Shown here piece by piece: positions 8,276 through 27,788 of a stretch of DNA of 29,213 bases; within the stretch, counting starts at the first letter, position 1; every line of letters starts with the position of its first letter. Both the position numbers and the translations under genes were made by a program. Under the pieces are notes generated by a model, which made no database searches, had not been told where the DNA came from, and was given only the letters and a program-made list of their open reading frames with translations. Location of the stretch: positions 1 through 29,213 of IMG/VR virus record IMGVR_UViG_3300008954_000200. One strand, written 5' to 3'. The stretch comes from a virus.

Positions 8276-10771
8276 ATGGCAAAGGAAACTCCAGAAGAAT
8301 CAGAATCAGTCTCGGGTTCTGAAGCACTATCAACGCGTTTTGCAAAAAAGCTGCGCTTTGATGACCAGTGTTTTTTGTCCGATGCAATACGCTGGTTCGC
8401 CAATAAGAATAAAAGAGTACCCTATAATAATTTCATAGTTCTTGATGCAGATGCCAAAGGCGACGGCGCCTCGTTGGTTTCTAAAGCAAACTCAAGATTC
8501 GGAGCAACTGGCGCCGGACTAAGAGCTTTTTTATCCATGACTCCCGCAGAGTTTGCTACCTTGGTGCCAAAAATAAGATTGTATGTGATTAAATATAGGA
8601 ATAAAGACGATGGCAAAGGAATGCAACAAGAATTAGTATTTCCAGACTGGACAGGCAAGCACGTTATTGACAATATAATGAAGACGGCCACCGGCCGCGG
8701 CGATGGAGCGGGAATAAGTAAGTTTGATTACGAATTTGACGGCCGCGATCCCGCAACAACAGAAAACTTAATTAAAGCTAGTGTAACTATCTCGTTTACG
8801 GACTTCGAAGTATTGGCAAAACCACTGCGAGGTTTGACACAAGTAGAGGCAGAATATTTTGGTAAAGGTAAAGAGAACGCCGAGCCTAGATACTTAGATC
8901 TAGTAACTAGGTTTACACCAGGCAATTCAGCCGCTGTTTTTACAAAGCTAAAGGCCAGCATTGGCTGGCAACCGCCATCGGATGAGAGTGGTATTGTGAT
9001 TAGAGAAGATCTGAAAGAGTTTATATCCGCCGGTTACGCTAACATGGATTTGATTTTATATATGACGGGTCACGATTTAACGTTTAAAGAGAACGGCCGA
9101 GTCGATTTGAAAGTTGAGTTTCGCGCCGCGCTAGAAGGCTTAATGGGCGACCGCGGCGCAGACATATTAGCCCCAGATAATAGCATTGATGAGGATATGA
9201 AGAGAAAGGATAAAGAGGAGCGACAGAAGACAAAAGATAAAATCGATGAACATAGAAAAGAGAAAAAGAAGCAGAAAGACATCGCGAAAAAAGAGGACGA
9301 AAGTTCAGGGTTCTGGGACACCGACGCGGAGGATGACGCGGACGACGCCGCGGAGGCAGCCGAGAAAAAGCAAAAGGCCGCGGAGGAGGAATTGCGCCTT
9401 TTACAATTGCAACAGGACGTGAGACGAGAGAGACTGCGCACAGTCAGATACAAAAAATTATTGGACGATTTAAATAGCTCCGGCAAGATAAGGTTTATAG
9501 ATATCCATACTGATTCTCTTGACACATGGCTAACAGATGGCGGCTCTAGAGATGCGACTTCTAGTTCTCGCTATACAGCTACCAAAGCTATAGCAGAGGG
9601 TGATGGACAGTCTGCTAGCATACCGGAACAAGCAAATGAAAAAGATAACCCTGCTGCAAGAGGAGCGAAAGCTGCTAAAGATTATCAGAAGGAACTAGAT
9701 AAAAAAGCGAAAGAAAAAGACCACGATAAGATTAGGGATCTCGAAAAAAAACAAGAACAGCCAGATGTACCCGAAGATTATCATAGAATTTATTATATTT
9801 ATCTTGGAGATATAATTAACATCGCAGCTGCAGTCTTGGAACGAACAGATAAATGGCACGGCGTGACGAGATTGGTAACAGGCCCAGTACAATTTGATGA
9901 TCCGAATACCCCCGGCTCCGAAACAATTATTGAAAATATAGCAGACATACCAATTGCATTAAGTACTTTTGTCGAGTGGTATTACGAGAAGGTAATTGTC
10001 AAAGCTAAGGATCTCTATCCTCTCAAAGATTTTCTTAATGATGTAATCACGGATCTTGTATATCGATCTTTGGGAGAGCAGTGTTTTGAGGGCCTGTCCA
10101 AAATGCCGTCCTTCAGTATGACCCCTATGATATTCAACATGTCGATCGACGGCGCGGCCAGAGTAGAGCCGATTAAAAAAGACACGGCCACTGGATTTTT
10201 CCCGCGGCTGACGGTTAAACAGTTTGCCGAAAAAGTAAAAACTAACTCAAGCTCAGTACCTAGCAATACCGTGACTTACATATTTTTAACAGCTGTTTTC
10301 AAGCACGAGAACACATTCAATGATGGTGACATAAGAAAAGATGAGAAAGATGGTATTTATCATTTTGGTATCGGCAGAGATAGGGGTATCATTAACACCA
10401 TAAAATTTAAGAAAGTTGAAATGAACTACAGGAAAGAAGCACTCGTGCTAGATCAAGGCAACCTTGGAACTGGCCAGCTACGAGAAGTTTATGATGCTGA
10501 TATAACCATGGTTGGCAATACTTTGTTTCGAAACGGGCAGTATTTATATATTGATCCCTCAACTATGGGTGTAAGCAGGAAGACTGCACAAGAATTAGGT
10601 ATGGGTGGCTACTATGTTATTACGAAGGTCGATGGCGAGCTAAGTGCTGATGGCTTTGAAACCAGTTTAACTTGTAAGTATAACAGTAAAAAAAGAAAGA
10701 CAAGCAAATCAAAAAAAGTTTCAGAGGCACCCCCCAAAACTCCGGATCCTATTGACGGTGCATCCGAATAA
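8276..10771 (+). CDS. Large probable virion/baseplate protein, 831 aa
   Basis: Not recognised as a specific T4 protein. Its position inside the tail operon makes a structural role likely. It has two globular parts. Residues 1-300 include RIRLYVIKYRNK-type strands at ~100-110 and a domain ending DLKVEFRAALEGLMG. Residues 510-830 include YYIYLGDIINIAAAVLE, FDDPNTPGSETIIENIADIP and VYRSLGEQCFEGL, then FRNGQYLYIDPSTMGVSR with GGYYVITKVDGEL. They are joined by a long, very charged Lys/Glu linker (about 305-395 and again ~450-505) that looks coiled-coil or disordered. The C-terminal part has the feel of a hub protein (gp27-like) because hub proteins end in such surface domains, but this is inference. 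The C-terminus is basic (KKRKTSKSKK). Confidence 0.7.
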   Translation: MAKETPEESESVSGSEALSTRFAKKLRFDDQCFLSDAIRWFANKNKRVPYNNFIVLDADAKGDGASLVSKANSRFGATGAGLRAFLSMTPAEFATLVPKIRLYVIKYRNKDDGKGMQQELVFPDWTGKHVIDNIMKTATGRGDGAGISKFDYEFDGRDPATTENLIKASVTISFTDFEVLAKPLRGLTQVEAEYFGKGKENAEPRYLDLVTRFTPGNSAAVFTKLKASIGWQPPSDESGIVIREDLKEFISAGYANMDLILYMTGHDLTFKENGRVDLKVEFRAALEGLMGDRGADILAPDNSIDEDMKRKDKEERQKTKDKIDEHRKEKKKQKDIAKKEDESSGFWDTDAEDDADDAAEAAEKKQKAAEEELRLLQLQQDVRRERLRTVRYKKLLDDLNSSGKIRFIDIHTDSLDTWLTDGGSRDATSSSRYTATKAIAEGDGQSASIPEQANEKDNPAARGAKAAKDYQKELDKKAKEKDHDKIRDLEKKQEQPDVPEDYHRIYYIYLGDIINIAAAVLERTDKWHGVTRLVTGPVQFDDPNTPGSETIIENIADIPIALSTFVEWYYEKVIVKAKDLYPLKDFLNDVITDLVYRSLGEQCFEGLSKMPSFSMTPMIFNMSIDGAARVEPIKKDTATGFFPRLTVKQFAEKVKTNSSSVPSNTVTYIFLTAVFKHENTFNDGDIRKDEKDGIYHFGIGRDRGIINTIKFKKVEMNYRKEALVLDQGNLGTGQLREVYDADITMVGNTLFRNGQYLYIDPSTMGVSRKTAQELGMGGYYVITKVDGELSADGFETSLTCKYNSKKRKTSKSKKVSEAPPKTPDPIDGASE

Positions 10772-10806
10772 ACCATAATCAGACTAATTATTTGTGAGGG
10801 GCTAAC

Positions 10807-12177
10807 GTGGCAAAAAAAGATTTAGATATAAAAAATTCTCTCGCGACTCCAAAAGAAACTGGAGCTTATAATCTTTTTAACTACAAGAAGGCTTACAAAA
10901 ATATAGATAGCGTCGTTATAAGCGGGATAGAGACGATAGATTTTCAAGACATAAGGCAGTCTTATGGTAAACTAGACCTCGACGGCCGAGCCGTATACCC
11001 ATCGGAAGAGAACTTGATAACATTAAATTCAGAGAGTTCAAGTCAGCCAGTTTTTATTGTTAATTTTGTTGGCGACGCTTTTACTGACTTGAGGGCCTAT
11101 ATGAGGCGCGCAGCTTTTAGAAAAAAAGTAGACATAAACAACTCACCGATGTTTGATCTAGACCCAGTAGCCGGCTGGCGTAGCTTTAAAAAAGATTATC
11201 ATGATTACTTGAACGAGATCTATCTTCTGTTCTTCAACAAATATATTCGTCAAAATAAAATAAACGAAAAGATAAATAACTTTGATGATTTTGTGGAGGC
11301 GTTTCTGCCGTTTGTAAGATCTTACATAACTCAATTCAACATGCCGTTCACTTTTTCGGGATTTATAAAACACCAAATGTGTTCTCCAATGATCGGTGGA
11401 CTTATGATTGATATAAGTTCTGCCGACTGTAATAATGATTTAATAAAGAGAAAAGAATTTTTACAAAACGCCGACTTTGAATTCTACAGAAATACAGTTA
11501 AGAAGTTTGGCTTTGTTGTCGACAAAAATATACCGTGGAGGCTCGTCGCAGACTTATCCTCCAACCCCATGAAAAAATATATGGATGAATACGGGCTGAA
11601 ATATAAACAAGTATTTCCAGAGTACTATTACCGAGCAATCAATTATGATGTCGGATTTTTTAAAGATTACATGGTGGGTTTTTATAATTCTCTCGTAACT
11701 TCGATACCTTATGTAAACCAAACCGAGTATTGTGCAGCTAAGATAAAAACTATTTCTAGATTATCAAAGAGATTACCAATATTAAAGGAAGATTTAGATA
11801 AAAACTATTCATTAGATTACTGGCTCAATAAATATATACTATTCAGAACTTATGAAACTAAATCCAAATTAGAAGAGAATGATTTAAAGCTAGCTGAAAA
11901 AAAACTAAGAAGAATGGTTAGAAAGTTTGACATTTCTAAGATTATGTTGTATATTGATAGCATAATAGAAAACAATACAGGTTTAGAGAAACACATGTTC
12001 AAGCAAGAAGAGTGGCCAGATTTTGACTACACTCCGCCACCACCAAAAGAGTTTACGAATGTACAGGGCCTGATAAAAGAAAATTTAGGCCTAGGCGCAG
12101 GCCAGCCAGGAGCTTCAGCGCTCTTGGGGCTTAACGCTTCTACTTCCGGAGACGAGTCCGGAGGAAGCTCTTATTAA
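10807..12177 (+). CDS. Probable virion protein of unknown function, 456 aa
   Basis: Starts with GTG behind a GTGAGGGG ribosome site. I do not recognise the family with certainty. Visible features are aromatic-rich helices: WRSFKKDYHDYLNEIYLLFF (~117-136), SYITQFNMPFTFSGFIKH (~172-189), WRLVADLSSNPMKKYMDEYG (~247-266) and FFKDYMVGFYNSLVTSIPYV (~284-303). The C-terminus is a flexible Gly/Ser/Ala tail (GLGAGQPGASALLGLNAS). No membrane segment or enzyme motif is evident. It is the last gene of the tail block, 35 bases after the 831-aa gene and 11 bases before the PolA-like gene. A structural role is inferred only from position. Confidence 0.65.
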   Translation: MAKKDLDIKNSLATPKETGAYNLFNYKKAYKNIDSVVISGIETIDFQDIRQSYGKLDLDGRAVYPSEENLITLNSESSSQPVFIVNFVGDAFTDLRAYMRRAAFRKKVDINNSPMFDLDPVAGWRSFKKDYHDYLNEIYLLFFNKYIRQNKINEKINNFDDFVEAFLPFVRSYITQFNMPFTFSGFIKHQMCSPMIGGLMIDISSADCNNDLIKRKEFLQNADFEFYRNTVKKFGFVVDKNIPWRLVADLSSNPMKKYMDEYGLKYKQVFPEYYYRAINYDVGFFKDYMVGFYNSLVTSIPYVNQTEYCAAKIKTISRLSKRLPILKEDLDKNYSLDYWLNKYILFRTYETKSKLEENDLKLAEKKLRRMVRKFDISKIMLYIDSIIENNTGLEKHMFKQEEWPDFDYTPPPPKEFTNVQGLIKENLGLGAGQPGASALLGLNASTSGDESGGSSY

Positions 12178-12188
12178 TTGAGTGGGAA

Positions 12189-13373
12189 ATGTTATTTCAA
12201 ACATTAGATGAGAAAAAGAAATGCGTCGCCGTGTATCGAGCCGGAGAGTTGATTTATAATCAGATACCGGACGATCTAACTACGACTTGGAAATACACCT
12301 CTTTCTTGTACGATCGAGATATAGAATACGCGAGCTTGTATTGCGTCGGAAAAACTATAGATGAAGTGTGTCCGGACAATATAAAAGATAAGTGGGAAGA
12401 CATAAATAAAAAATTAAAAGCTTTTCTAATATCCTTTAGCGAAGCAGGCGTCTCTTTGCATGATAATTGCTTTTTCGATTTAGTCCCAGAAAGATTCTTG
12501 CTAGAGTATTGCGATTTGAAAAATAAAATTACCGAAAATGTAATAGATACATATGACAAGCCTCAAAATTACCAGTTTCTTTTGGAGTTGACAAGAGTTT
12601 TGGAAAGCATAAAATACCAGAAGCTAAACCTTAACTTTCGAAAGATGGATAAACACTTAGGATCCTTGGCAAATAGAAATCAATTTAAAAAATTAATAAG
12701 CTGCAGCCCATATATATCTTATGATATAGCTGGGACTAAAACTGGACGACTCACTACGACTAAGAGTGCCTTTCCTATACTGACATTAAACAAGAGTTAC
12801 AGGGGCGTCATTGAGCCAGTCAATGATTGGCTTATAGAGCTTGATTTCAATGCAGCGGAGTTGAGAACTCTATTAGCTCTATCTGGCAAGCCTCAACCAG
12901 AAGAAGACATGCATGAGTGGAATGTAAAGAATGTATACGGAGGATCAATAGCCAGGAAAGAAGCAAAGAAGAGAATATTTGCTTGGCTTTATAATCCTAA
13001 CTCGAAAGACTCTCTTTCGGCGTCTGCTTATGATCGGAACGGAGTTATAAACAAATTCTGGCAAGGAGCAAGTGTCAAGACCGTCTTCAACAGAGACATA
13101 CCATCGGACAAACACCATGCATTAAACTATATTATCCAGAGCACAACAAGTGACCTGTTTTTAAGAAGGATGATAGAGGTGCATAAGTTACTAGCAGATA
13201 AGAAGTCGTTTATATCTTTCAGCGTACACGATTCGCTGGTTATCGATTTGGCAGAAGAGGAAAGAGATATTCTCACTGAGATCGTAGACACCTTTTCAGA
13301 CACAGACCTAGGTAAGTTTAAGGTCAACGTTTCCGCAGGTAGAGACTACTCTAACATGAGGAAGTTAATATGA
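12189..13373 (+). CDS. Minimal family A DNA polymerase (PolA-like)
   Basis: A 394-residue protein holding only the polymerase part of DNA polymerase I. In order: TGRLTT (185-190, the TGR template/primer motif); motif A LIELDFNAAELR (215-226) with catalytic D219; motif B/O-helix RKEAKKRIFAWLY (256-268), matching the T7 pattern RxxAKxxxxGxxYG except that Ala replaces the first Gly and the last is lost; NYIIQSTTSDLF (313-324), matching NxxIQGxxAD; and motif C FSVHDSLVID (344-353) with catalytic D348. Motif C is normally VHDE, so Ser replaces Glu. No 3'-5' exonuclease motif and no 5' nuclease domain are seen, and it is much shorter than the Klenow part (~600 aa). The next gene overlaps it by ATGA. 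It could be a gap-filling or primer-extending enzyme. The family is secure; activity is unproven. Confidence 0.85.
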   Translation: MLFQTLDEKKKCVAVYRAGELIYNQIPDDLTTTWKYTSFLYDRDIEYASLYCVGKTIDEVCPDNIKDKWEDINKKLKAFLISFSEAGVSLHDNCFFDLVPERFLLEYCDLKNKITENVIDTYDKPQNYQFLLELTRVLESIKYQKLNLNFRKMDKHLGSLANRNQFKKLISCSPYISYDIAGTKTGRLTTTKSAFPILTLNKSYRGVIEPVNDWLIELDFNAAELRTLLALSGKPQPEEDMHEWNVKNVYGGSIARKEAKKRIFAWLYNPNSKDSLSASAYDRNGVINKFWQGASVKTVFNRDIPSDKHHALNYIIQSTTSDLFLRRMIEVHKLLADKKSFISFSVHDSLVIDLAEEERDILTEIVDTFSDTDLGKFKVNVSAGRDYSNMRKLI

Positions 13374-14206
13374 ATGTTATAGGGCTAGGCAAAGCCGGCT
13401 GTAACATAGCCGAGAAGCTATCTCAGTACCCTCAGTACGAGGCATACTATATCGACTCAGTTGCGCGCCCCGGTAGCTCCTTGAAGGTTCCTAAGAAAAA
13501 GAGCCATGAAGAGTACGAAGCAAAGACTAGACTTAGGGCGAATTTCTTCAAGCAGATAAAAGGCGAGTGTCTATTCATTGTGTGTGGCTGTGAGACAATT
13601 TCGGGTTTGACATTGCGAATTCTCGAAAAATTTTCCGGGGAAAAAATTGAGATTTTGTACATTAAGCCAGATATCAGTTTATTGCCAGAAATAAAGATAT
13701 TACAAGAAAGAGTGACCTTTAATATATTACAGCAGTATACTCGCTCTGGAGTATTCGAGAAAATGTATATAGTCGAAAATGCCAAATTGGAGTCTACACT
13801 GGGAGATGTTCAGATAATAGGGTACTATGATAAGCTCAACGAGCTTCTTGTTTCTACGTTGCACATGATTAACGTTTATAAACACTCAATTGCAGAAATG
13901 GACACTTTTTCATCATCAGAGGCACCAGTTAGAATTTCAACCTTTGGTGTTGTTGAGTGCGATTCAGGCGAAGAAAAACTTTTTTATGATATTGACTTTC
14001 CTCGCGAGAAAGTGTATTATTATGCTATAAACCAAGAACAACTTGAGAAAGATGGTTCTTTATTTAAGAAGATAAAACAACAAGTAAAAAAACAAGCAGA
14101 AGAAGAAAAATTAAAAGTTTCATATGGTGTTTTTTCAACAGACTACGAACAGAATTACGCTTATTGCATTACAAGCGCCAGTTTTATACAAGAACAAAAA
14201 ATTTAA
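13370..14206 (+). CDS. Divergent FtsZ/tubulin-fold protein
   Basis: A 278-residue protein starting at ATG within the polymerase stop (ATGA overlap). The N-terminal two thirds follow the FtsZ GTPase-domain order. VIGLGKAGCNIAEKL (3-17) resembles the first glycine loop and helix. YEAYYIDS (23-30) matches the strand ending in the nucleotide-facing residues. CLFIVCGCETISGLTLRIL (67-85) sits where FtsZ has its GGGTGTG tubulin signature. ILYIKPD (95-101) matches the VTKPF strand, RVTFNILQQYTRSG (114-127) the following helix, and MYIVENAKLE (132-141) the IxIPNDKL strand. The signature loop is degenerate and no T7-loop NxDxxD is evident, so GTP hydrolysis or polymerisation is doubtful. The last part ends with a charged helix and beta strands. 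Fold assignment is my inference from pattern; function is unknown. Confidence 0.6.
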   Translation: MNVIGLGKAGCNIAEKLSQYPQYEAYYIDSVARPGSSLKVPKKKSHEEYEAKTRLRANFFKQIKGECLFIVCGCETISGLTLRILEKFSGEKIEILYIKPDISLLPEIKILQERVTFNILQQYTRSGVFEKMYIVENAKLESTLGDVQIIGYYDKLNELLVSTLHMINVYKHSIAEMDTFSSSEAPVRISTFGVVECDSGEEKLFYDIDFPREKVYYYAINQEQLEKDGSLFKKIKQQVKKQAEEEKLKVSYGVFSTDYEQNYAYCITSASFIQEQKI

Positions 14207-14214
14207 AAAAACAC

Positions 14215-14243
14215 TTGACATTAGTTTGAATTTGTTATAGACT
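14215..14243 (+). promoter_or_regulatory. Sigma70-type promoter for the gp32-like gene
   Basis: A perfect -35 TTGACA (14215-14220) is followed after 17 bases by TAGACT (14238-14243, 4 of 6 to the consensus). Transcription would start near 14250, just upstream of a possible leader hairpin. It lies in the only sizeable gap between the FtsZ-like gene and the SSB gene. Confidence 0.7.
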
Positions 14244-14298: not shown

Positions 14299-15054
14299 AT
14301 GGGAATTGATATGACAAAGATGAGAGAGAAGTTAACCTCTCTCAATAGTAGAGACGGGTCCAAGAGTAATTTTTGGCGTCCTCAAGATGGAGATACTACT
14401 ATTCGAGTAGTGCCTACAAGTGACGGCGATCCTTTCAAGGAGTACTGGTTTCACTACAATGTAGGGGAGAACGGCGGTTTCCTGTGCCCGAAGAAGAACT
14501 ACGGCGAAGATTGCCCGGTTTGTAGCTTCGTGCGCAATCTTTATAACGATGGCGATGAGGCTAGCGTAAAGATGGCCAAGAACCTTAATGCTCGCCAACG
14601 ATTCTTCGCTCCAGTTGTTGTCAGAGACAACGAGCAGAACGGAGTCCAGGTATGGGGCTTCGGCCGGACAGTCTACACAGACTTACTCAATCTAGTACTA
14701 AATCCTGATTATGGAGATATTACAGAGGTTGACGCTGGTACAGACCTTGTTATTACTTATGGTAAGGCCCCTGGGCAGGCTTTCCCGCAAACTAACATTA
14801 CTCCTCGTCGACGCTCTTCCGCGTTGAACGAAGATAGTGAGGTAGTAAAGGAATACTTGGATAATATACCTGATTTTTCCACTCTCTTTGATAAGAAGAC
14901 AACTTCAGAAGTTCAAACTATTTTGGATGGATATATGCTTGATGACGAGGCCGACGCAGAAGAGACGTCCTCAGAAAGTAAGAAGTTTGGCACTCAAGCC
15001 ACTGAGAGTGGTACCAATTCAGTTGATAAAGCTTTTGAAGAGCTTCTTGGCTGA
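14299..15054 (+). CDS. Single-stranded DNA-binding protein (gp32-like)
   Basis: A 251-residue gp32-type SSB. It coats ssDNA at the fork and recruits helicase and recombinase. The zinc site is visible as H52, C63, C72 and C75 (CPKKNYGEDCPVC), the same H-C-C-C arrangement as T4 gp32. The N-terminal basic region SKSNFWRPQDGDTTIRVVP and the OB-type core (QRFFAPVVVRD, VWGFGRTVYTDLLNLVLN) follow. The C-terminal ~45 residues are acidic and flexible and end FEELLG, as expected for the protein-interaction tail. T4 gp32 is 301 aa. AAAGGAG lies 6 bases before the ATG. It has its own promoter and a stem-loop after it, consistent with its need to be made in large amounts. Confidence 0.92.
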   Translation: MGIDMTKMREKLTSLNSRDGSKSNFWRPQDGDTTIRVVPTSDGDPFKEYWFHYNVGENGGFLCPKKNYGEDCPVCSFVRNLYNDGDEASVKMAKNLNARQRFFAPVVVRDNEQNGVQVWGFGRTVYTDLLNLVLNPDYGDITEVDAGTDLVITYGKAPGQAFPQTNITPRRRSSALNEDSEVVKEYLDNIPDFSTLFDKKTTSEVQTILDGYMLDDEADAEETSSESKKFGTQATESGTNSVDKAFEELLG

Positions 15055-15146: not shown

Positions 15147-16256
15147 GTGGCTAGAGCAAAAAAAATAAAGACAGGGCGCCTTAGTGTCACCGAGATGAGG
15201 AATCTTATTAATAAAAAGGTTGGCCTCAATGTCGCGCACAACCTGGGAGAGGAAAATCCTACCGAGGTAAAAGATTGGATTCCTACTGGGTCACGATGGC
15301 TAAACTCTATGGTTTGCAGAGGAAAGTTAGCCGGCATCCCAGTTGGCAAAATTTCTGAAATTGCCGGCCTCGAATCTACAGGCAAGTCTTTTTTGGCTGC
15401 TCAAGTAGCAGCAAGTGCTCAAAAGATGGGTATTGATGTAGTGTACTTTGATAGTGAATCCGCTATTGACCCAACCTTTCTTGAAAAGGCGGGTTGCGAT
15501 ATCGAAAGCTTACTGTATGTACAGGCCAATAGTGTTGAGTTTGTTTTAGAGACGATAGAGGATTTGCTAGAGAACAATGAGAACAGAATGTTGTTCATTT
15601 GGGACAGTTTAGCACTAACACCATCTCTTACCGATCAGGAGGGTGATTTTAACCCCCTGTCGTCGATGGCAGTCAAGCCTAGGATACTGTCTAAAGGCAT
15701 GGCCAAGCTCGTCCAACCCATTGCTAATGCCCAGGCTACCCTACTGGTGTTAAACCAGCTTAAAATGAATATTACGAGCAATATAGCTGAAGCTATGACC
15801 ACCCCCTACTTCACTCCGGGCGGTAAAGCGATGCATTACGCATATAGCCTTAGAATTTGGCTCACTGGAAGGAAGGCAAAGAACTCCTTTGTACAAGACG
15901 AAAGAGGGTTTAGGATCGGCTCTGAAGTAAAAGCAAAGCTTGAGAAATCTCGTTTTGGCACCCAGGGCCGACAGTGTACCTTCAAAATTCTCTGGGGAGA
16001 CAAAGTTGGAGTTCAAGACGAAGAGAGCTGGCTCGAAGCAATTAAAGGGTCGGAACACATAAGATCCGGCGGAGCTTGGTATACTCTTGAGTATTCAGAT
16101 GGTTCGACAGAAAAGTTCCAAGCCTCAAAGTGGGTCGAGAAACTTGAAGAAGAGAAATTTAGAAACAGAGTGTTAGAACTCATGGATGAGGAAGTAATTC
16201 TAAAATTCCACGAGAAAACTGGAAATGCTGCTGATTTCTATGAGATAGAAGAATAA
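15147..16256 (+). CDS. RecA/UvsX-type recombinase
   Basis: A 369-residue strand-exchange ATPase of the UvsX/RecA family, which forms filaments on ssDNA for recombination-dependent replication and repair. The start is GTG, with TAGGAG at 15135-15140 in front. Seen: Walker A GLESTGKS (74-81), the strand VVYFDSESAID (98-108) with the catalytic Glu position, Walker B MLFIWDS (148-154), and VLNQLKMN where RecA has its Gln sensor. TPYFTPGGKAMHYAYSLRIW matches the RecA block FyPGGxALkfyaSxRl. Length is close to T4 UvsX (391 aa). The C-terminus is charged. It follows SSB and precedes the 5'-3' nuclease and helicase, a coherent recombination/replication cluster. Confidence 0.93.
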   Translation: MARAKKIKTGRLSVTEMRNLINKKVGLNVAHNLGEENPTEVKDWIPTGSRWLNSMVCRGKLAGIPVGKISEIAGLESTGKSFLAAQVAASAQKMGIDVVYFDSESAIDPTFLEKAGCDIESLLYVQANSVEFVLETIEDLLENNENRMLFIWDSLALTPSLTDQEGDFNPLSSMAVKPRILSKGMAKLVQPIANAQATLLVLNQLKMNITSNIAEAMTTPYFTPGGKAMHYAYSLRIWLTGRKAKNSFVQDERGFRIGSEVKAKLEKSRFGTQGRQCTFKILWGDKVGVQDEESWLEAIKGSEHIRSGGAWYTLEYSDGSTEKFQASKWVEKLEEEKFRNRVLELMDEEVILKFHEKTGNAADFYEIEE

Positions 16257-16288
16257 TCTAACTATTTATAACATAGGAGTTAAATTCT

Positions 16289-16624
16289 ATGTTTAGCCAA
16301 CAAATAAATGAGCTTTTGGATGAAGCCTTAGCCACTCAGACCGGAAATATTTACGGCGCTGATGTGGTCATGAGGTCGGACAGAACCCAAAATCTAACGG
16401 ACATTCTGGATAAATTAAGAGCAGTTTGTGATATTACGATTGTGAATCTTCCAGAGCCAAGCAAGCAGCTATCAAAATATGTGGATTTATCTAAATTAAA
16501 TATTAAATTTTTATTGACTTCGCCTTCGGTAAAAGAAGAAATGAAGCGAATTACTGCAGCAGCGCAGGCCTTAGACGGCGTATTTTCATTTAGAATAAAA
16601 CACGTTCAAATAATCGATAATTAA
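16289..16624 (+). CDS. Small hypothetical protein, possible ferredoxin-like fold
   Basis: A 111-residue protein between the recombinase and the nuclease gene, behind TAGGAG (spacing about 10). No motif that I can name. After a helical N-terminus (QQINELLDEALATQ) the pattern is helix (DILDKLRAVC), strand (DITIVNLP), a linker, strand (NIKFLLTS), helix (SVKEEMKRITAAAQAL) and strand (VFSFRIKHVQIID). This would suit an alpha/beta sandwich of ACT or ferredoxin type, as in many small phage regulators and structural proteins. That is pattern inference only. It is neither basic enough to be an obvious DNA-binding protein nor membrane-bound. Confidence 0.7.
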   Translation: MFSQQINELLDEALATQTGNIYGADVVMRSDRTQNLTDILDKLRAVCDITIVNLPEPSKQLSKYVDLSKLNIKFLLTSPSVKEEMKRITAAAQALDGVFSFRIKHVQIIDN

Positions 16625-16636
16625 TAAGGAATTTTA

Positions 16637-17602
16637 ATGTCTTCTAAAAGACTTTTGATCATAGACATGTTAAACATGTTCTATAGAGCATATATTGTAG
16701 ATCCCTCCCTGTCAACCAACGGCGCTCCTATCGGAGGTTTGAAAGGCACAATTAAGATACTACAGAAACTTATACGTGAATCAAACCCGGATAAGGTAGT
16801 GGTGTGCTGGGACGGAGCAGGAGGGTCTCGTAAGAGAAGATCTCTGAAGAAGGACTACAAGGCCGGCCGCAAGCCAATTCGACTTAATAGATCTGTACGT
16901 ACATTATCAGAGAACGAAGAGATGGAGAATAAGTTCTGGCAGCAAGGCAGATTAATAGAATACATCAATAGCATGCCGATCGCTCAATTAATGTACGAGG
17001 ATATTGAGGCAGACGATCTTATTGCCTTCATTAAAGCAATGCCCCAATATAAAGATTGGCAGAAAGTGATCATATCCAGCGATAAAGACTTCTTTCAACT
17101 TTTAGATGAGAATACTATCTTACACCGACCCGTACAAAAGGAGTTTTTGAATAAATTAGCAGTTTTAGAGAAGTTTGAAATACATCCTAATAATTTTGCT
17201 ATAGCGAGAGCGATCGCCGGGGACAAGAGTGATAACCTTCCCGGTATTCCAGGCGCTGGCCTGACAACGGTTAAAAATAGATTTCCCTTTTTAAAAGAAG
17301 AGAAGCACTATACTTTAAAGGATATTGTAGACTATTGTAAGAAAAACTTAGATTCTAAGGTGAAAATATACGAAAGGATCCTTGAGAATGAAGATGTTCT
17401 AAAATTAAATTATAAGATGATGCAACTATATACGCCCTCTCTTAGCGCGAACACGAAAAGAAGCATTAAGACTATAGTTTTGGAAGCTGACAACTCTTTT
17501 AACAAGACAGAGATATTAAAGCTCATGATTCAAGACGGATTCGGAGAGTTCAATTGGAGCGAGTTGTCGCAAAAATTGAACAAAATATCTATTGACAATT
17601 GA
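16637..17602 (+). CDS. 5'-3' nuclease (T4 RNase H / FEN family)
   Basis: A 321-residue flap/5'-3' exonuclease that would remove RNA primers from Okazaki fragments. The metal-binding residues are visible: LLIIDMLNMFYRAY (6-19, D10), VVVCWDG (54-60, D59), YEDIEADDLIA (120-130, E121, E124, D126, D127) and VIISSDKDFFQLL (144-156, D149, D151). The helix-hairpin-helix block GDKSDNLPGIPGAG (195-208) has D196 and D199. T4 RNase H is 305 aa, a good match. The arch/helical gateway would include the basic stretch GGSRKRRSLKKDYKAGRKP (62-80). It is encoded separately from the PolA-like gene, which lacks this domain. Function is secure by motif. Confidence 0.93.
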   Translation: MSSKRLLIIDMLNMFYRAYIVDPSLSTNGAPIGGLKGTIKILQKLIRESNPDKVVVCWDGAGGSRKRRSLKKDYKAGRKPIRLNRSVRTLSENEEMENKFWQQGRLIEYINSMPIAQLMYEDIEADDLIAFIKAMPQYKDWQKVIISSDKDFFQLLDENTILHRPVQKEFLNKLAVLEKFEIHPNNFAIARAIAGDKSDNLPGIPGAGLTTVKNRFPFLKEEKHYTLKDIVDYCKKNLDSKVKIYERILENEDVLKLNYKMMQLYTPSLSANTKRSIKTIVLEADNSFNKTEILKLMIQDGFGEFNWSELSQKLNKISIDN

Positions 17603-17620
17603 CGCTAAATTATGTATTAT
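17592..17620 (+). promoter_or_regulatory. Sigma70-type promoter before the helicase gene
   Basis: TTGACA (17592-17597), a 17-base spacer and TATTAT (17615-17620) inside TGTATTATATACAT. The -35 lies within the last codons of the nuclease gene. A second, overlapping TTGACG at 17599-17604 is present. The -10 region is almost the same as that of the dnaE promoter. Confidence 0.8.
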
Positions 17621-17637
17621 ATACATTAAGAACTAAC

Positions 17638-17642
17638 CGGAG
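17638..17642 (+). promoter_or_regulatory. Ribosome site that decides the helicase start
   Basis: CGGAG lies 5 bases before ATG 17648. An upstream in-frame GTG at 17642 overlaps this site, so ATG 17648 is the better start. Confidence 0.65.
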
Positions 17643-17647
17643 TGAAA

Positions 17648-18997
17648 ATGCAAGAGGCTGATTTTTCAAAATATGGAAAATCCTTTCAAGAATCTTTAGC
17701 ATACTTATTTTTGGAAGATCGGCCGTTCTCCGATCAACTAGAAGAGGTGCTTGACGTTGAATTTTTTGAGCTAAAATACTTAAGAGTCTTCACCTCTCTC
17801 GTGATGGATTATAAAACGAGATATAAAACTCAACCGTCTAAAGATATAATGTCATCCCTTCTCAAGTCTAGCTTAGACGACGAGAACGAGGCAATACAGA
17901 AACAAATTAGAGATTTCTTTGTTAGATATTCCTCCAAGGACATCGAGGGGATTGAGTACGTCAAAGAGACATCCCTAGATTTCTGTAAAAAGCAGAAGTT
18001 GAAGGAAGCCATACTAAAGTCTGTCAACCTTTTGCAGAATTCATCGTATGACGAAATTAAGAGTCTAATAGACGACGCTTTAAAATTAGGCGTCGACGCT
18101 GATCACGGACATGACTACAAAAAAGATTTTGAGTCTAGATATGAAATTACAGCAAGGAATCCAGTCGCGACGGATTGGAAACACATTGACAAAATTTGTA
18201 AAAATGGGCTAGGCATAGGGGAGTTAGGTGTCTGCATCGCAGCCACGGGCTCCGGTAAGAGCATGGCTCTAGTCCACCTAGGAACCGCGGCGCTCCGCGC
18301 CGGTAAAAATGTAGTACACTACACTCTAGAGCTTTCAGAAAAAGTTATTGGATTGAGGTATGATAGCTGCCTAAGCAGCGTCCCCTTAAACGATCTCCAC
18401 GATATGAAGGATATGGTAGAGGAGTCATGTTTAGATGTACCAGGAGAACTTTTTATTAAGGAATATCCAACTAAGACCGCGAGTCCAAAAAATATTGCTA
18501 AGTCTTTAGAAAAATTAAACAAACTGGATCATAAGGTTGATTTAATAATAGTTGACTACGCAGATTTACTTAGACCATCTTCGGCTTTTAAAGAAAAAAG
18601 AAATGAACTAGAGTCTATTTATGAAGAGTTAAGGGCCCTAGCACAACAGCATGGTTGCCCCATTTGGACAGCTTCTCAGACGAACAGAAGTGGATTAAAC
18701 GCAGAGGTGATTACTATGGAATCCATATCAGAGGCTTTCAATAAATGTTTCGTGGCAGATTTTATTTTTTCTATATCCAGAACAATTGAAGACAAGAACA
18801 CGAATACAGGAAGAATGTTCATTGCAAAAAATAGGAATGGTCCGGATGGAATGGTATTCCCCATTTTTATGGATACATCGAATGTTACTATTAAGGTGCT
18901 CGAACAGTCAACTGAATCACCAAGAGAAATAGAAGAAAACGCCGCCAAAAGACAGCACACAACTTTGAAAGAAAAATATAAGAAATTTAGGACTTAA
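17648..18997 (+). CDS. Replicative DNA helicase (DnaB / gp41 family)
   Basis: A 449-residue RecA-fold hexameric helicase that unwinds DNA 5'-3' at the fork. The N-terminal helical domain spans about 1-150. The ATPase core begins with GLGIGELGVCIAATGSGKS, with Walker A at 198-205. It continues with VVHYTLELSEKVIGLRYDS (222-240, the catalytic Glu strand E228), then the Walker B strand LIIVDYADLL, followed by CPIWTASQTNRSG (the H3/Gln-sensor strand) and FIAKNRNGPDGMVFPI near the end, where DnaB proteins carry their arginine-finger hairpin. T4 gp41 is 475 aa. No separate primase (gp61/DnaG) or helicase loader (gp59) is seen in the window. It has its own promoter and is followed 12 bases later by the reductase gene. 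Confidence 0.92.
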   Translation: MQEADFSKYGKSFQESLAYLFLEDRPFSDQLEEVLDVEFFELKYLRVFTSLVMDYKTRYKTQPSKDIMSSLLKSSLDDENEAIQKQIRDFFVRYSSKDIEGIEYVKETSLDFCKKQKLKEAILKSVNLLQNSSYDEIKSLIDDALKLGVDADHGHDYKKDFESRYEITARNPVATDWKHIDKICKNGLGIGELGVCIAATGSGKSMALVHLGTAALRAGKNVVHYTLELSEKVIGLRYDSCLSSVPLNDLHDMKDMVEESCLDVPGELFIKEYPTKTASPKNIAKSLEKLNKLDHKVDLIIVDYADLLRPSSAFKEKRNELESIYEELRALAQQHGCPIWTASQTNRSGLNAEVITMESISEAFNKCFVADFIFSISRTIEDKNTNTGRMFIAKNRNGPDGMVFPIFMDTSNVTIKVLEQSTESPREIEENAAKRQHTTLKEKYKKFRT

Positions 18998-19009: not shown

Positions 19010-21421
19010 ATGAATAAAGATACTGATGTTGAAAAAGAAACGCTAGAGTATTTTGGTGGAGATGAGCTAGCTACCAACGTCTGGATGACAAAATATTGCC
19101 TTAAGGATAATTCCGGCACTATGCTGGAAAAAACTCCAGATGACATGCACAGAAGACTTGCGTCCGAATTCGCGAGAGTTGAACAAAAGTTCAACGGCCC
19201 GGGCATGTTATCCGAGGAACAAATATATCAGTATCTAAAGGACTTTAAGCACATTGTTCCGCAAGGTTCCCCCATGATGGGAATAGGTAATGATCATGTA
19301 AATATCTCATTATCTAATTGTGTTGTCGTTGCTCCCCCGAAAGATGATATAACGTCTATAATGAATACTGCAAAGGATCTGGCAAACCTTTTCAAGAGGC
19401 GCTGTGGCGTCGGCGTAGATATCTCTCAACTGAGACCAGACGGCATGCCTGTAAATAATTCTGCCGGAACTACCTCCGGAGCGTGGAGTTTCTCTGACCT
19501 GTATTCATATGTCTGTCGCATGATAGGTCAGAATGGCAGACGAGGAGCACTAATGATTTCCATGGACGTCCGTCATCCTGATGTGGAACAGTTTATTACG
19601 ATGAAGCACGATCTAACAAAAGTTACAGGCGCCAATGTATCTGTAAAGATAACTGATGAGTTCATGGCGGCTGTTGAATCAGAAGAGGACTTTGAATTAA
19701 GATTTCCAGTAGACTCTGAGGAACCTAAATTTAAGAAAACAATCAAGGCTAAGGAGCTGTGGGATCTTATGGTGACTTCCGCAACGAATACAGCGGAGCC
19801 GGGACTACTAATGTGGGATAATATTTGTGATTACCTTCCTGCGAACGAATACGAAAACTTTAAGACTGAATGCGTAAACCCGTGCGCGGAGTTGCCGCTG
19901 TCTTCATACGATAGTTGCAGGCTAATATCTGTTAATCTAAAAAACTTTGTTAAAAATCCCTTTGCAGACAACGCAAAATTTGATTTTAAAAAGTTTAAAG
20001 AAGTGACGACGGCAGCGATGCGTTTGTCTGATGATCTAGTTGAGCTAGAGCTAGAGAAGCTAGAAAATATTAGGACCGTCGCAGACCAGCAAGAAGAAAA
20101 AGAACTTTGGGAGAAGTTGTATGAAACCTGTCTTCGTGGAAGGAGAACCGGATTAGGCACGCATGGTTTGGCTGATGTTATAGCATGCTTGGGATTGGCT
20201 TATGATTCCGAAGAGGCTATTAAGATTATAGATAAGATTTATGAAACTTTAAAGATATCTTCTTATGAAGAGAGTGTCAATTTGGCCAAAGAGCGAGGCT
20301 CTTTCCCGGATTTTGATTGGAATATAGAGAAAGATAACTTGTTCATTAAAAGCCTTCCAAAAGAACTGCAGGATAGAATTTCAAAGTTCGGAAGAAGAAA
20401 TATATCTATATTAACTAACGCTCCCACTGGCTCAGTATCTATTCTTAGCAGAACTAGCTCCGGCTTAGAGCCAGTGTTCAGGAATTCTTATATCAGGAGA
20501 AGAAAGTTAGATTTCAACGAGTCTGATGTCGAGCCAGACTTTATAGACGACCTGGGAGACCGGTGGAAAGAATTTGCAGTTTATCACCACAACGTAAAAG
20601 AATACTTAGAAAAGTTTGAGACAGAAGAGTTACCAAGCTTTTTTGTTGAGAGTGATAGCATTGACTGGTCTCGTAGAATAGATATTCAAGCTACTATTCA
20701 GCGGCATATCGACCATTCCATTTCGTCTACCATTAACTTGCCGAAGGGGACTAAACCGTCTGTTGTTGGCGACCTATACTTCAAGGGATGGCAGAAAGGT
20801 CTGAAGGGCATAACAGTTTATGTAGATGGCTCCAGAACTGGTGTACTGTTATCGGAGAACGAGGCAAAAGATGACTTCCCTCAGAACAACGCTCCAAAGC
20901 GCCCGATCGAGTTGGATTGCGAAATACACCGGCCCACAATCAAGGGAGAGGAATGGACTATTCTAGTAGGCCTTTTGGAAGGTATGCCGTATGAAATTAT
21001 TGGTGGGTTATCTACTTTTATTGAGATACCAAAAAAGTATGAAAATGGAATAATAGTAAAGCACCCAAGAAAGAGCACAAACAGTGTATACGACTTGAAA
21101 TTTGGAGACAACGGTGATGAAGTTATTATCAAGAACATTGTAAAAGTTTTTGATAATCCAAATTATTCTGTATTCACTAGGATGATTTCTCTTGCATTAC
21201 GACACGGTTCTGGTGTACAATATGTAGTTGAACAGTTGAGAAAGGATCGCGATAGCGATATGTTCAGCTTTTCGAAGGTTGTTGCAAGAGTGCTAAAGAA
21301 ATACATTAAAGACGGATCAGTAGCCACGGATAGGACTTGTCCAGATTGTTCTGAAGAAGGCCTAGTATACGTCGACGGATGCGTTACATGTACAAGTTGC
21401 GGATTTGCAAAGTGTGGATAA
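19010..21421 (+). CDS. nrdJ: Class II (B12-dependent) ribonucleotide reductase
   Basis: An 803-residue adenosylcobalamin-dependent reductase converting ribonucleotides to deoxyribonucleotides. SLSNC (100-104) holds the first redox cysteine. CGVGVDISQLRP follows. VNPCAELPL (289-297) holds the active-site Asn290, Cys292 and Glu294. NAPTGSVSILSRTSSGLEP is the phosphate-binding loop of class II enzymes. FKGWQKGLKGITVYVDGSR is typical of NrdJ. The C-terminal part (about 640-803) is the usual NrdJ extension ending in a zinc-ribbon-like tail, CPDC ... CTSCGFAKCG, which carries the terminal redox cysteines. No NrdB-like small subunit is seen. It needs no oxygen, but needs B12 from the host. GGAG lies 9 bases before the ATG. 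Confidence 0.95.
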   Translation: MNKDTDVEKETLEYFGGDELATNVWMTKYCLKDNSGTMLEKTPDDMHRRLASEFARVEQKFNGPGMLSEEQIYQYLKDFKHIVPQGSPMMGIGNDHVNISLSNCVVVAPPKDDITSIMNTAKDLANLFKRRCGVGVDISQLRPDGMPVNNSAGTTSGAWSFSDLYSYVCRMIGQNGRRGALMISMDVRHPDVEQFITMKHDLTKVTGANVSVKITDEFMAAVESEEDFELRFPVDSEEPKFKKTIKAKELWDLMVTSATNTAEPGLLMWDNICDYLPANEYENFKTECVNPCAELPLSSYDSCRLISVNLKNFVKNPFADNAKFDFKKFKEVTTAAMRLSDDLVELELEKLENIRTVADQQEEKELWEKLYETCLRGRRTGLGTHGLADVIACLGLAYDSEEAIKIIDKIYETLKISSYEESVNLAKERGSFPDFDWNIEKDNLFIKSLPKELQDRISKFGRRNISILTNAPTGSVSILSRTSSGLEPVFRNSYIRRRKLDFNESDVEPDFIDDLGDRWKEFAVYHHNVKEYLEKFETEELPSFFVESDSIDWSRRIDIQATIQRHIDHSISSTINLPKGTKPSVVGDLYFKGWQKGLKGITVYVDGSRTGVLLSENEAKDDFPQNNAPKRPIELDCEIHRPTIKGEEWTILVGLLEGMPYEIIGGLSTFIEIPKKYENGIIVKHPRKSTNSVYDLKFGDNGDEVIIKNIVKVFDNPNYSVFTRMISLALRHGSGVQYVVEQLRKDRDSDMFSFSKVVARVLKKYIKDGSVATDRTCPDCSEEGLVYVDGCVTCTSCGFAKCG

Positions 21422-21693: not shown

Positions 21694-21978
21694 ATGAATG
21701 TTTTTCCAGTTAATAAAATGATCTTGATTGAGCCTACAGAGGAGAAAGAAGCGGCAGACAATAAAACAATATTGGTGCCGGAGGATTATAAACCAAAAAG
21801 TCAATATGGCCTAGGCTTTGTTCTCGATACTTCTGATGACTGCGAATTAGATATCTCTGCTGGGGATGAGATTGTTTATGAGAATTCTATGTTGCAAGAG
21901 GTTCCGGCCCATGGCGAAAGTCACTTTTTATTAAAAGAGAATTATGTTTTGTGTGTGTTGGAAGATGAAGAAGATTAG
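21694..21978 (+). CDS. GroES-like co-chaperonin (gp31 type)
   Basis: A 94-residue protein of the GroES/gp31/CocO kind, which would cap host GroEL so that the phage capsid protein folds. The GroES beta-barrel pattern is visible: FPVNKMILIEPTEE at the start (compare GroES IRPLxDRVLV), an acidic mobile-loop-like segment AADNKTILVPEDYKP, YGLGFVLDTSDD, SAGDEIVYENSM (GDxVxF strand), then FLLKENYVLCVLED at the end (compare the terminal DILAIV). GroES is 97 aa and T4 gp31 111 aa. No GroEL is present. The next gene begins at the last base of its stop codon (TAGTG). Confidence 0.8.
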   Translation: MNVFPVNKMILIEPTEEKEAADNKTILVPEDYKPKSQYGLGFVLDTSDDCELDISAGDEIVYENSMLQEVPAHGESHFLLKENYVLCVLEDEED

Positions 21979-24350: not shown

Positions 24351-27300
24351 ATGACAGAGCGAGTTAAGAGTAAGATCCCCTTTGTAGGACTGCACGCACA
24401 CAGCGTCGCCGGATCTCCTTTCGACGGATTTGGCTATCCGCAAGAACACATGGACTTCGCATATGAAAATGGATGCGATGCGCTCGCTCTAACAGATCAT
24501 GGTAACATGAATGGATTCTCTTACCAACTACTTCATTTGAAGAAGATGAAAGAAGAAGGAAAGCAATTTAAAGCTATCTTCGGCATCGAGGCATATTTCA
24601 CAACTTCCGTAAAAGATTGGAAGGAGGCATATGAAAAGGCTAAGGCAGATAAAAAAGCAGCCAAAAGCTTGGAGAAGGACGACGGCAAGATGTCCGTTGA
24701 AAATGAAGGCGCCTCTAAGACAGCAGATACCGGTATCCTTAAACGCCGGCGACATCTCGTACTACTCGCTCAAAACCAGACGGGACTCAATAACATTTTC
24801 AAGATGGTTTCAGAGTCATACCAGGGTGACAACTATTACAGATATCCACGAGTTGATTATGAGCTACTGGAGAAGTATAGCGAGGGCGTTATTGCTAGCT
24901 CCGCTTGCCTTGGCGGTGTATACGCCGGTAACTATTGGGAGAATCGCGAACAAGGTGAAGAGGCTGTGCTCGATGCTATGCGAGAGACTACCAGAAGAAT
25001 GATCTCTATTTTCGGAGAGAGATGGTTCGGAGAGCTACAGTGGAATAACGTACCAGAGCAACACACACTAAACAAGTACATTGTGCAGATGAAAGAAGAG
25101 TTCGGTATCAAACTGATCTCTACAGCAGACAGTCACTATCCCAGCGCCGACGCGTGGAAGTATAGAGAGTTATACAAGAGACTCGGATGGATTGGCAGAT
25201 CCTCTTCTCGGCCCGATTATATGACAGATGAGCTACCAATCTCCGTTGATGAGATAGGCTATGAACTGTACCCTAAGAACGGCGACCAGATGTGGGAGAG
25301 TTATGAAAAGTACTCTGCAGAAGTTGGTATAGAGTATGACGAAACTCTGGTTATGGACTCTATCACAAACACTTATTGGATCGCCCACGAGCTTATAGAT
25401 GACTTTATACCTGACACTACGGTACGACTTCCCGAGTTTGTTGTACCGCCAGATTCGACTGCAGACGAAGCATTGCGCAAGTTTTCTTTTGAAGGTATGA
25501 AGAACTTAGGCTTAGTTCACAGGAAGGATTACATTGCAAGATTAGAGACTGAGTTAGATGTTATTGCGGATAGAGGCTTCAGCAAGTACTTCTTGACAAT
25601 GAAAGCGGTGGCAGACAAATCCAATGAAGTGATGCTCACAGGCCCGGGCCGCGGCTCTGCGGCCGGATCCCTTGTGGCTTACGTACTCAAGATTACGCAG
25701 GTAGATCCAATCAAGCATGGGCTACTATTCGAGAGATTCTTGCGCAAGGATGCTACAGATTATCCAGATATTGATTTTGATGTCGCAGAGCCGATGGAGA
25801 TTAAAGAGTATCTCATGGACGAGTGGGGAGAGACCACCGTTGTACCGATCTCTAACTTCAACACTCTGCAGCTACGCTCTCTGATCAAGGATATCTCTAA
25901 ATTTTATGAGGTGCCTTTTCCTGAAGTGAACTCCGTAACATCGAGGATGATCCACGAAGCTACTCCCGAAGCAAAGAAGAAGCACGGCATCAAGAGTGGC
26001 GTATATATCCCGACCTTCGAAGAGGTGATAGAGTACTCTGTAAGCCTACGAGAGTTCTTTGTTAAGTATCCAGATATCAAGACACACGTTGAAGCCCTCT
26101 ATGGCCAAGTGCGAGCAGTTAGCAGGCATGCTGGAGGTGTAGTGATTGGCGAGGACCTAGACCGCCACATGCCTCTCATTCAAAGCGGAGGGGTGCTACA
26201 GACACCATGGTCTGAGGGCCAAAACGTTCGCCATCTTGAACCTCTTGGTTTCATTAAGTTTGATGTACTCGGCCTCTCTACACTTCGTATGATTGAGAGT
26301 GCAGTGGGGCACATTCTCAAGAGACACTACAACGTAGAAGAGCCCACTTACGAGCAGATTAGAAAGTTCTATGATAAGAAGCTTCACCCTGAAGTTTTAG
26401 ATCTGGATGACAAAGAGGTATACAAGAATATCTTTCAAGCAGGAAAGTTTGCAGGAATATTTCAGTTTACTCAGAAGGGCGCGCAGAACTTCTGCAGACG
26501 CGCCCAGCCAGATAATATCATCGACCTGTCCGCTATCACTAGTATTTATCGCCCCGGCCCATTGGGTGCTAAAGTAGATAAATCTTATGTTAAAGCAAAG
26601 AATAATCCAGAAGATATACATTACCTGCATCCCATTGTGGAGTCGGTGACAAAGGAGACATACGGATTCTTGATTTTCCAGGAGCAGATCGCATTGCTAG
26701 CCCACAAGCTTGGCAAAGGCATCTCGCTGGACGAGGCGAATCTGCTCCGCAAGCTGCTTACAAAGAAGGGCACTGGAAAAGGTGCCCGAGATAAAAAGAA
26801 GATTGAAACGAAATTTACTCAAGGCTGCAAGGAGAAAGGAATTGATGAAACGTCGGCAAGACAACTATGGCAAAATTTCGAATATTTCTCTGGTTATGGA
26901 TTTAATAAGTCACACGCTGTTTCTTATAGCATACTCAGTTTTCAGTGCGCATGGCTGCTTAACTATTATCCCGCAGAGTGGATGGCAGCTTTTCTAGACA
27001 AAGAGCCAGAGGGAAGAAAAGAGGAAGCAATCAGTATTGCCAAGCAAGCAGGCTTCGATATCAGAGCGTTAGACATTAATACCTCTGGAGTTCAGTGGGA
27101 GATTAGTGAGGACGGCACTACACTCATCCAGCCACTTACATCAATTAAGGGGCTGGGCGATGCAGCTACCGCTCAAATCCTGGCAAACCGGCCATTTAAA
27201 GATGCGGAGAGCTTTCTCTTTAGTGAGGATATTGTATACTCGAAGTTAAACAAGAAGGCCCTAGATGTCCTGTGCCGCTCCGGAGCAATGGATTGCTTAA

Positions 27301-27788
27301 TAGATGACAGGTTTACTGGAGGCAAGCACTTCTGGTCGGCCCTTGCAATCGACAGGCCAAAGAACTTGAAGAAGTTCCACGAGAATATAGATATGTATGC
27401 CCCCGAGGGTGACTTCACCGATGAGGAGAAGATTGAATACTTTTCTTCACTAACGGGCATCTTTCCTATTGACATGGTGGTAGATAAAGAGGTACAATCT
27501 AAGTTAAATGATTATTGTGTCCCGCCCATTGGAGAATGGGACAATGATTTGGGAGTAGCATGGTTTATTCCGAGAGAAGTAATCAAGAAGAAAACAAAGA
27601 ATGGAAAGTCATATTGGATCGTAAGAGTGATTGATACAACGTCAGCGATAACAAGCATCAAGTGCTGGGGTGTCAAAGAGAAAGACACCATCCACTTAAA
27701 TCGCCCGTACATGGGTAAGCTTGACTATAATGATCAATGGGGCTTTTCAACCAGATCAATGTATTACAACTTTAGATTATTAGGATAA
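24351..27788 (+). CDS. dnaE: DNA polymerase III alpha subunit-like replicase (family C)
   Basis: A 1145-residue bacterial-type replicative polymerase, close in length to E. coli DnaE (1160). The PHP domain is present with HAHS (15-18), LTDHG (47-51), GIEAY (78-82), H135 and TADSHY (258-263), so its metal site looks intact. The palm has GPGRGSAAGSL (431-441), the catalytic PDIDFD (472-477, D473 and D475) and FDVLGL (637-642, D638). Fingers motifs follow: SRHAGGVVIG (591-600), GIFQFTQKG (702-710), SIYRPGPL (731-738), FQEQI (776-780) and YGFNKSHAVSYS (849-860). A helix-hairpin-helix IKGLGDAATAQIL (~932-944) and an OB-like end complete it. An insert of charged residues lies at ~95-128. No proofreading DnaQ or clamp gene is in the window. 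Highly confident by motifs. Confidence 0.97.
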   Translation: MTERVKSKIPFVGLHAHSVAGSPFDGFGYPQEHMDFAYENGCDALALTDHGNMNGFSYQLLHLKKMKEEGKQFKAIFGIEAYFTTSVKDWKEAYEKAKADKKAAKSLEKDDGKMSVENEGASKTADTGILKRRRHLVLLAQNQTGLNNIFKMVSESYQGDNYYRYPRVDYELLEKYSEGVIASSACLGGVYAGNYWENREQGEEAVLDAMRETTRRMISIFGERWFGELQWNNVPEQHTLNKYIVQMKEEFGIKLISTADSHYPSADAWKYRELYKRLGWIGRSSSRPDYMTDELPISVDEIGYELYPKNGDQMWESYEKYSAEVGIEYDETLVMDSITNTYWIAHELIDDFIPDTTVRLPEFVVPPDSTADEALRKFSFEGMKNLGLVHRKDYIARLETELDVIADRGFSKYFLTMKAVADKSNEVMLTGPGRGSAAGSLVAYVLKITQVDPIKHGLLFERFLRKDATDYPDIDFDVAEPMEIKEYLMDEWGETTVVPISNFNTLQLRSLIKDISKFYEVPFPEVNSVTSRMIHEATPEAKKKHGIKSGVYIPTFEEVIEYSVSLREFFVKYPDIKTHVEALYGQVRAVSRHAGGVVIGEDLDRHMPLIQSGGVLQTPWSEGQNVRHLEPLGFIKFDVLGLSTLRMIESAVGHILKRHYNVEEPTYEQIRKFYDKKLHPEVLDLDDKEVYKNIFQAGKFAGIFQFTQKGAQNFCRRAQPDNIIDLSAITSIYRPGPLGAKVDKSYVKAKNNPEDIHYLHPIVESVTKETYGFLIFQEQIALLAHKLGKGISLDEANLLRKLLTKKGTGKGARDKKKIETKFTQGCKEKGIDETSARQLWQNFEYFSGYGFNKSHAVSYSILSFQCAWLLNYYPAEWMAAFLDKEPEGRKEEAISIAKQAGFDIRALDINTSGVQWEISEDGTTLIQPLTSIKGLGDAATAQILANRPFKDAESFLFSEDIVYSKLNKKALDVLCRSGAMDCLIDDRFTGGKHFWSALAIDRPKNLKKFHENIDMYAPEGDFTDEEKIEYFSSLTGIFPIDMVVDKEVQSKLNDYCVPPIGEWDNDLGVAWFIPREVIKKKTKNGKSYWIVRVIDTTSAITSIKCWGVKEKDTIHLNRPYMGKLDYNDQWGFSTRSMYYNFRLLG

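Follow-up and report, generated by a model that had tools for sequence, protein, structure and literature searches.

A predicted tubulin/FtsZ-fold protein encoded between the PolA and SSB genes of uncultured phages

The replication gene cluster of an uncultured phage includes an ORF (nt 13370–14206, 278 aa) whose product is predicted to have the complete two-domain tubulin/FtsZ fold (GTPase domain, H7 and activation domain). By fold it belongs to a new family within the tubulin/FtsZ superfamily, and its sequence signatures set it outside FtsZ, TubZ/PhuZ and tubulin. Its relatives lie invariably between genes for a family A DNA polymerase (PolA) and a single-strand DNA-binding protein (SSB), and we put the chance that this divergent family is a core accessory protein of the phage replication module at somewhat less than even.

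The window, the whole stretch of virus DNA that was analysed, is a virus record of 29,213 bases. Its left part carries tail genes (sheath, tube, a T4-type baseplate protein and a possible tape measure), then unknown genes, followed in order by PolA, the tubulin-fold gene, a gp32-like SSB, UvsX/RecA, a 5′-3′ exonuclease and a DnaB helicase (Table 1). Ribonucleotide reductase, a GroES-like protein, a DnaE-type polymerase III alpha, an HNH endonuclease and a dUTPase are also encoded in the window.

Table 1. Positions of the tubulin-fold gene, its sequence features and its neighbours in the window.
Feature	Position (nt)	Strand	Evidence
Compact family A DNA polymerase (PolA), 394 aa, predicted Klenow-like fold without full exonuclease domain	12189–13373	+	Pfam DNA_pol_A (E 1e-14); AF2 and fold search
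GAGGAAG, Shine-Dalgarno-like, 5 nt 5′ of the ATG, within the PolA gene	13358–13364	+	Read in sequence
Predicted tubulin/FtsZ-fold protein, 278 aa, two domains	13370–14206	+	ORF, AF2 model, Foldseek/VIA-align, dN/dS
ATGA stop-start overlap of PolA and the tubulin-fold gene	13370–13373	+	Read in sequence
T1 glycine loop, residues 5–14, GLGKAGCNIA	13382–13411	+	G5, G7 and G10 kept in 97–99% of 181 members
Position of the GGGTG[ST]G signature, residues 73–79, GCETISG, degenerate	13586–13606	+	hhalign register; canonical motif in 0/181
Residues 121–126, QQYTRS, end of helix H5	13730–13747	+	Q121, R125 and S126 at 99–100% in 181 members
N137, putative T6 guanine-contact position (E. coli FtsZ N165)	13778–13780	+	94% of 181; profile-alignment mapping
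Y153–N157, start of helix H7, putative base-stacking and base-contact positions	13826–13840	+	Y/H/F/W at 153 in ~93%, N157 in 95% of 181; profile-alignment mapping
Residues 172–188, place of FtsZ T7 loop and H8; shortened, without conserved catalytic acid or predicted helix	13883–13933	+	Motif count, column acidity, DSSP
C-terminal (activation) domain, residues 189–278, without C-terminal tail	13934–14203	+	Model; aligns to end of FtsZ/CetZ cores
Sigma-70-like promoter match before the SSB gene	14215–14243	+	Consensus scan, 10/12; promoter-like sequence only
gp32-like SSB	14299–15054	+	Pfam gp32 (E 1e-17), phrog_1192
UvsX/RecA, 111-aa unknown, 5′-3′ exonuclease, DnaB helicase	15147–18997	+	Pfam/PHROG matches

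The model of PolA (pLDDT 93) matches the Klentaq and Bst fragments with a Z of 25 and has conserved catalytic motifs, but the protein is far shorter than these, and the part that precedes its polymerase domain is reduced to a remnant. The window also encodes a second polymerase family, the DnaE-type polymerase III alpha (1145 aa, nt 24351–27788), and PolA may for this reason not be the main replicase. The HNH endonuclease gene (nt 27793–28368), possibly a homing endonuclease, directly follows DnaE. The GroES-like co-chaperonin gene (Cpn10, E 3e-9; nt 21694–21978) lies amid replication and nucleotide genes, and the ribonucleotide reductase large chain (nt 19010–21421) has a weak TSCPD match, a possible sign of a class II, B12-dependent enzyme. 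On the 5′ side of PolA, two large ORFs of 831 and 456 aa (nt 8276–12177) have no Pfam or PHROG match and are kept there in relatives, with only 20–45% identity.

The original prediction of a divergent FtsZ/tubulin-fold protein was drawn from short motifs, and the ORF does contain VIGLGKAGCN, CGCETISGL, YIKPD and IVENAKL in the expected order. This resemblance to FtsZ exceeds chance, given the profile alignments, the sub-threshold Pfam Tubulin matches and the full two-domain predicted fold. The assignment of CGCETISGL to the place of the FtsZ GGGTGTG signature held for its register: profile–profile comparison by hhalign, with no structural input, set CETISGL on GGGTGTG and VEN on FtsZ IPN (weak, E 0.039). 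The sequence itself is an outlier in its own family, whose motif reads G-[SCA]-G-x-[IV]-[ST]-[GA]: E75 of the window member stands where 85% of members have G. The PhuZ profile gave a better match than that of FtsZ, aligning to the first ~100 residues of the family (E 1e-4), although both comparisons used small alignments and are suggestive at most. Sub-threshold Pfam Tubulin matches were found in 4 of 11 long records of relatives, all on the tubulin-fold gene and none elsewhere, and the best scores of family members to PF00091 (E 0.0045–0.0087) are below the Pfam cut-off.

An AlphaFold2 model built from a 46-row alignment (mean pLDDT 92.0, pTM 0.90) has its strands and helices in the FtsZ/tubulin order in both domains. 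FtsZ structures were the top Foldseek matches in the PDB (E 6.4e-13, probability 1.00, TM ~0.7), and VIA-align gave Z scores of 24.4 to CetZ (3zid), 23.0 to TubZ, 21.9 to FtsZ and 21.8 to tubulin, superposing 255–274 of the 278 residues with an rmsd of 2.8–3.6 Å. Model and both fold searches agree, and confirm the fold that had been proposed; the outcome named beforehand as refuting it, best fold matches to a different Rossmann family, did not arise. Among predicted viral proteins, the closest in fold (TM 0.76) comes from an uncultured phage and is annotated FtsZ; six others match at E < 0.001, two of them named cell division protein and tubulin. By both sequence and model the protein ends 8 residues past the last strand, and so has no PhuZ-type tail. 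The C-terminal tail peptide for FtsA/ZipA is absent from the protein, and the C-terminal helix and tail of PhuZ/TubZ are absent from both the model and the family alignment.

Conservation was counted in 181 non-redundant family members. Active-site positions were mapped by FtsZ profile alignment and secondary structure rather than by a superposed nucleotide, and the assignments are accordingly putative. On this mapping N137 corresponds to FtsZ N165 (T6), Y153 to F182, and N157 to N186 (H7), the last being the place of tubulin N228. These positions and the T1 glycines are kept in nearly all members (Table 1), and the guanine pocket, as aligned, appears conserved. The elements of hydrolysis appear degenerate, as had been suspected. 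Neither GGGTG[ST]G nor the T7 motif NxDxx[DE] (scanned in residues 168–189) occurs in any of the 181, and acidic residues reach at most 65% of members in any alignment column of the T7 region. The model shows no helix H8 (DSSP), and the T3 sequence GAG[AN] is absent from all but one of 145 sequences. Judged by these motifs, the canonical phosphate signature, the T3 loop and the T7 catalytic loop have been lost, and the protein is probably guanine-nucleotide-binding without canonical hydrolysis. Five other residues (Q121, R125, S126, H165 and E50) are invariant at 98–100%, none of which is a known nucleotide contact. An interface may be one reason for this, with QQYTRS at the end of H5 as the candidate.

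Database searches place the family apart from known groups. The protein has no PHROG match, PDB sequences gave nothing at a meaningful E-value to it and no hit to a profile (A2), and a tblastn search of 50,697 phage records found nothing usable. No listed member matched the PhuZ/TubZ families phrog_4733 or PF22334, both of which are matched by PhuZ itself. Weak matches to one PHROG, phrog_29734, came from 6 of 46 members (best E 3e-4), but 13 related records gave none. The family is not described in the open-access literature searched.

Relatives are numerous in IMG/VR, where 144 records carry one pair of conserved patterns, at least 557 another and at least 578 a third. The phages concerned are uncultured and mostly ocean-derived. 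A cyanophage origin was looked into via psbA and dropped, with no match in 13 records. The genome scan found one relative outside viral metagenomes, in a single-contig MAG chromosome labelled candidate division WOR-3 (CP070664.1; L100). This copy may reflect a binning error or a prophage and, as the two are indistinguishable, no host was inferred from it. Each of 11 long records carries one copy of the gene, its median dN/dS over 199 pairs of relatives is 0.07, and it is under strong purifying selection.

The place of the gene in the replication cluster was confirmed across relatives. At loci with enough flanking sequence, PolA is upstream in 148/148 and SSB downstream in 162/162. Starting from PolA, the tubulin-fold gene is downstream in 80/80, but these 80 are the closest PolA relatives and the count is not a test across all PolA genes. 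The ATGA overlap with PolA and the SSB-like gene that comes next were likewise as first described, and the promoter-like sequence before SSB suggests that the tubulin-fold gene may close the PolA transcription unit. The stop-start coupling had been singled out as the unusual part, which overstates it. In 107 of 148 loci no more than 30 nt separate the gene from PolA, and overlaps of 13, 4 or 1 nt are frequent, while the remaining 41 have more sequence in between, usually one or more genes, so that translational coupling is common but not obligatory. Such coupling is ordinary and not universal; it is the invariable order of PolA, tubulin-fold gene and SSB that is unusual. In some relatives (L109, L112, L116, L127, L137 and L029) the intervening ORF, of ~100 aa, is MazG-like by eye (KLVRDKIPEII...EELADVLEV), with weak Pfam support. 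Neither a TubR-like partner nor a centromere-like repeat array was seen near the gene, and the repeats around it look like chance. Mirror-tree analysis gave similar distance correlations with PolA, SSB and RecA (partial 0.35, 0.31 and 0.29) and picked out no single partner.

Two cultured phages share this gene order and differ from the window in having other ORFs, and no tubulin-fold gene, in the PolA–SSB slot. In Flavobacterium phage vB_FspM_immuto_2-6A (Immutovirus, 160 kb), sheath, tube, hub, tape measure, PolA, SSB, RecA, exonuclease and DnaB follow one another as they do in the window, and Microcystis phage Mel-JY01 (190 kb) has the PolA-SSB-RecA-exonuclease-helicase order in common with the window. 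Their PolA proteins match the window PolA profile (E 2e-17 and 4e-14, respectively). The ORFs in their PolA–SSB slot fail to match the tubulin-fold family profile (best E 0.06), and the idea that these are split tubulins was rejected on this value. Either one clade therefore acquired the gene or the others lost it. A small ORF following PolA in both (L232:1346–1801 and L230:5980–6369) is related by eye, with VHRKKESNT.YTIN.LN in common.

Compared with FtsZ, the protein has the same two-domain fold, the same order of T1, T4, KP and PN motifs and the guanine-contact positions. It differs in that none of the 181 members has GGGTGTG or the T7 motif, both of them invariant in the five FtsZ compared, and in having no C-terminal tail and remaining under the Pfam cut-off. 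CetZ and plasmid TubZ give the top structural scores (Z 22.9–24.4), but the solved chains are ~80–130 residues longer; the GTPase motifs of the phage protein are degenerate, and no TubR/tubC was seen. FtsZl1 and FtsZl2 are likewise prokaryotic families that have diverged strongly within the superfamily (Makarova and Koonin 2010, PMC2875224). Both were detected via the GGGTG(S/T)G motif, and FtsZl1, whose C-terminal part is unrelated and contains a coiled coil, is incompatible with the known S6-T7 structure and may either build filaments in another way or build none (PMC2875224). In contrast to these, the present family is phage-borne, lacks the motif and keeps a standard C-terminal domain.

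If the family is a core accessory of replication, the protein would bind guanine nucleotide stably, would show neither hydrolysis of the FtsZ/tubulin type nor treadmilling, and would exist as a monomer or in short static assemblies. In this static state, with nucleotide bound, it could serve as a scaffold or regulator that works with the phage PolA and SSB, for example by holding or positioning the replisome. That it would organise replication foci or gauge the state of replication, as first suggested, is conjectural. Points counted in favour are the fold, the kept guanine pocket, the lost hydrolysis motifs, the fixed place between PolA and SSB, the single copy, the dN/dS and the missing tail. 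Against it, linkage alone can keep phage gene order, the correlations with PolA, SSB and RecA are alike, and immuto and Mel-JY01 replicate with the same gene order and without the gene. The more specific proposal, that this is a tubulin-fold pseudo-GTPase serving as a dedicated replisome component (a polymerase/SSB accessory factor) and a core gene of a large uncultured clade, is tentative and rather doubtful.

The protein is unlikely to form dynamic PhuZ/TubZ-like filaments that serve to centre or segregate phage DNA or capsids and hydrolyse by means of unconventional residues, but such filaments would fit the shared fold (Z 23 to TubZ), the phage context, the better profile match of PhuZ and genomes of up to ~200 kb. 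PhuZ (phiKZ-type TubZ) of nucleus-forming jumbo phages is also alike in its GxGxxG-type T1 loop and the Asp after S2. It differs in keeping the catalytic T7 acids (D187 and D190 are invariant in the PhuZ alignment) and a C-terminal tail, which serves polymerisation (PMC3678025); the present protein has neither, and, unlike PhuZ, sits in a PolA–SSB cluster. The absence of GGGTG[ST]G from all 181 members and of a nearby TubR-like partner or centromere-like array also argues against a filament, as may the lack of a chimallin match (PF25677) in 13 records of 111–204 kb, which are possibly incomplete genomes searched with a phiKZ-specific model.

Nor is the protein likely to be an antagonist of host FtsZ, a subunit mimic that caps or poisons host filaments, even though one face lacks the T7/H8 elements, as that of a chain terminator could, and phage inhibitors of FtsZ such as lambda Kil (PMC3961180) and T5 Hdi (PMC10714956) are well known. 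The T3 and T4 loops of the other face are also eroded, so that this face would be poorly mimicked. At all informative loci the gene is a core member of the replication module, whereas host-takeover genes are usually small and variable. A purely regulatory role, in which the protein senses guanine nucleotide and adjusts replication or nucleotide supply without any structural part, is quite improbable: it would account for a guanine pocket kept while catalytic parts were lost, and for the ribonucleotide reductase and dUTPase in the window and the (weakly supported) MazG-like ORFs of some relatives, but the phosphate loops that would distinguish GTP from GDP are degenerate, and we know of no tubulin-fold sensor protein. 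Another Rossmann-type protein (TrkA-like, dehydrogenase or MinD) with a superficial likeness to FtsZ has next to no chance of being correct, since the best Pfam match of the single sequence, with no family above cut-off, is to TrkA_N over the first 20 residues (E 0.1) and spans the glycine loop only, while Foldseek and VIA-align, on which a dehydrogenase or TrkA identity was rejected, match tubulin/FtsZ over the full length and both domains.

Tubulin-superfamily proteins are known as GTP-hydrolysing filament builders. On the accessory-protein reading of the present family, a cytoskeletal fold would have been taken into the core of a phage replication module, in a clade that is common in viral metagenomes and whose gene was in none of the phage records searched by tblastn. 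Pfam and PHROGs missed the protein at cut-off, and similar cases may therefore hide in other phages. A kept fold and guanine pocket, with the parts for hydrolysis lost and a fixed slot between PolA and SSB, would show that the tubulin fold can be recruited to DNA replication.
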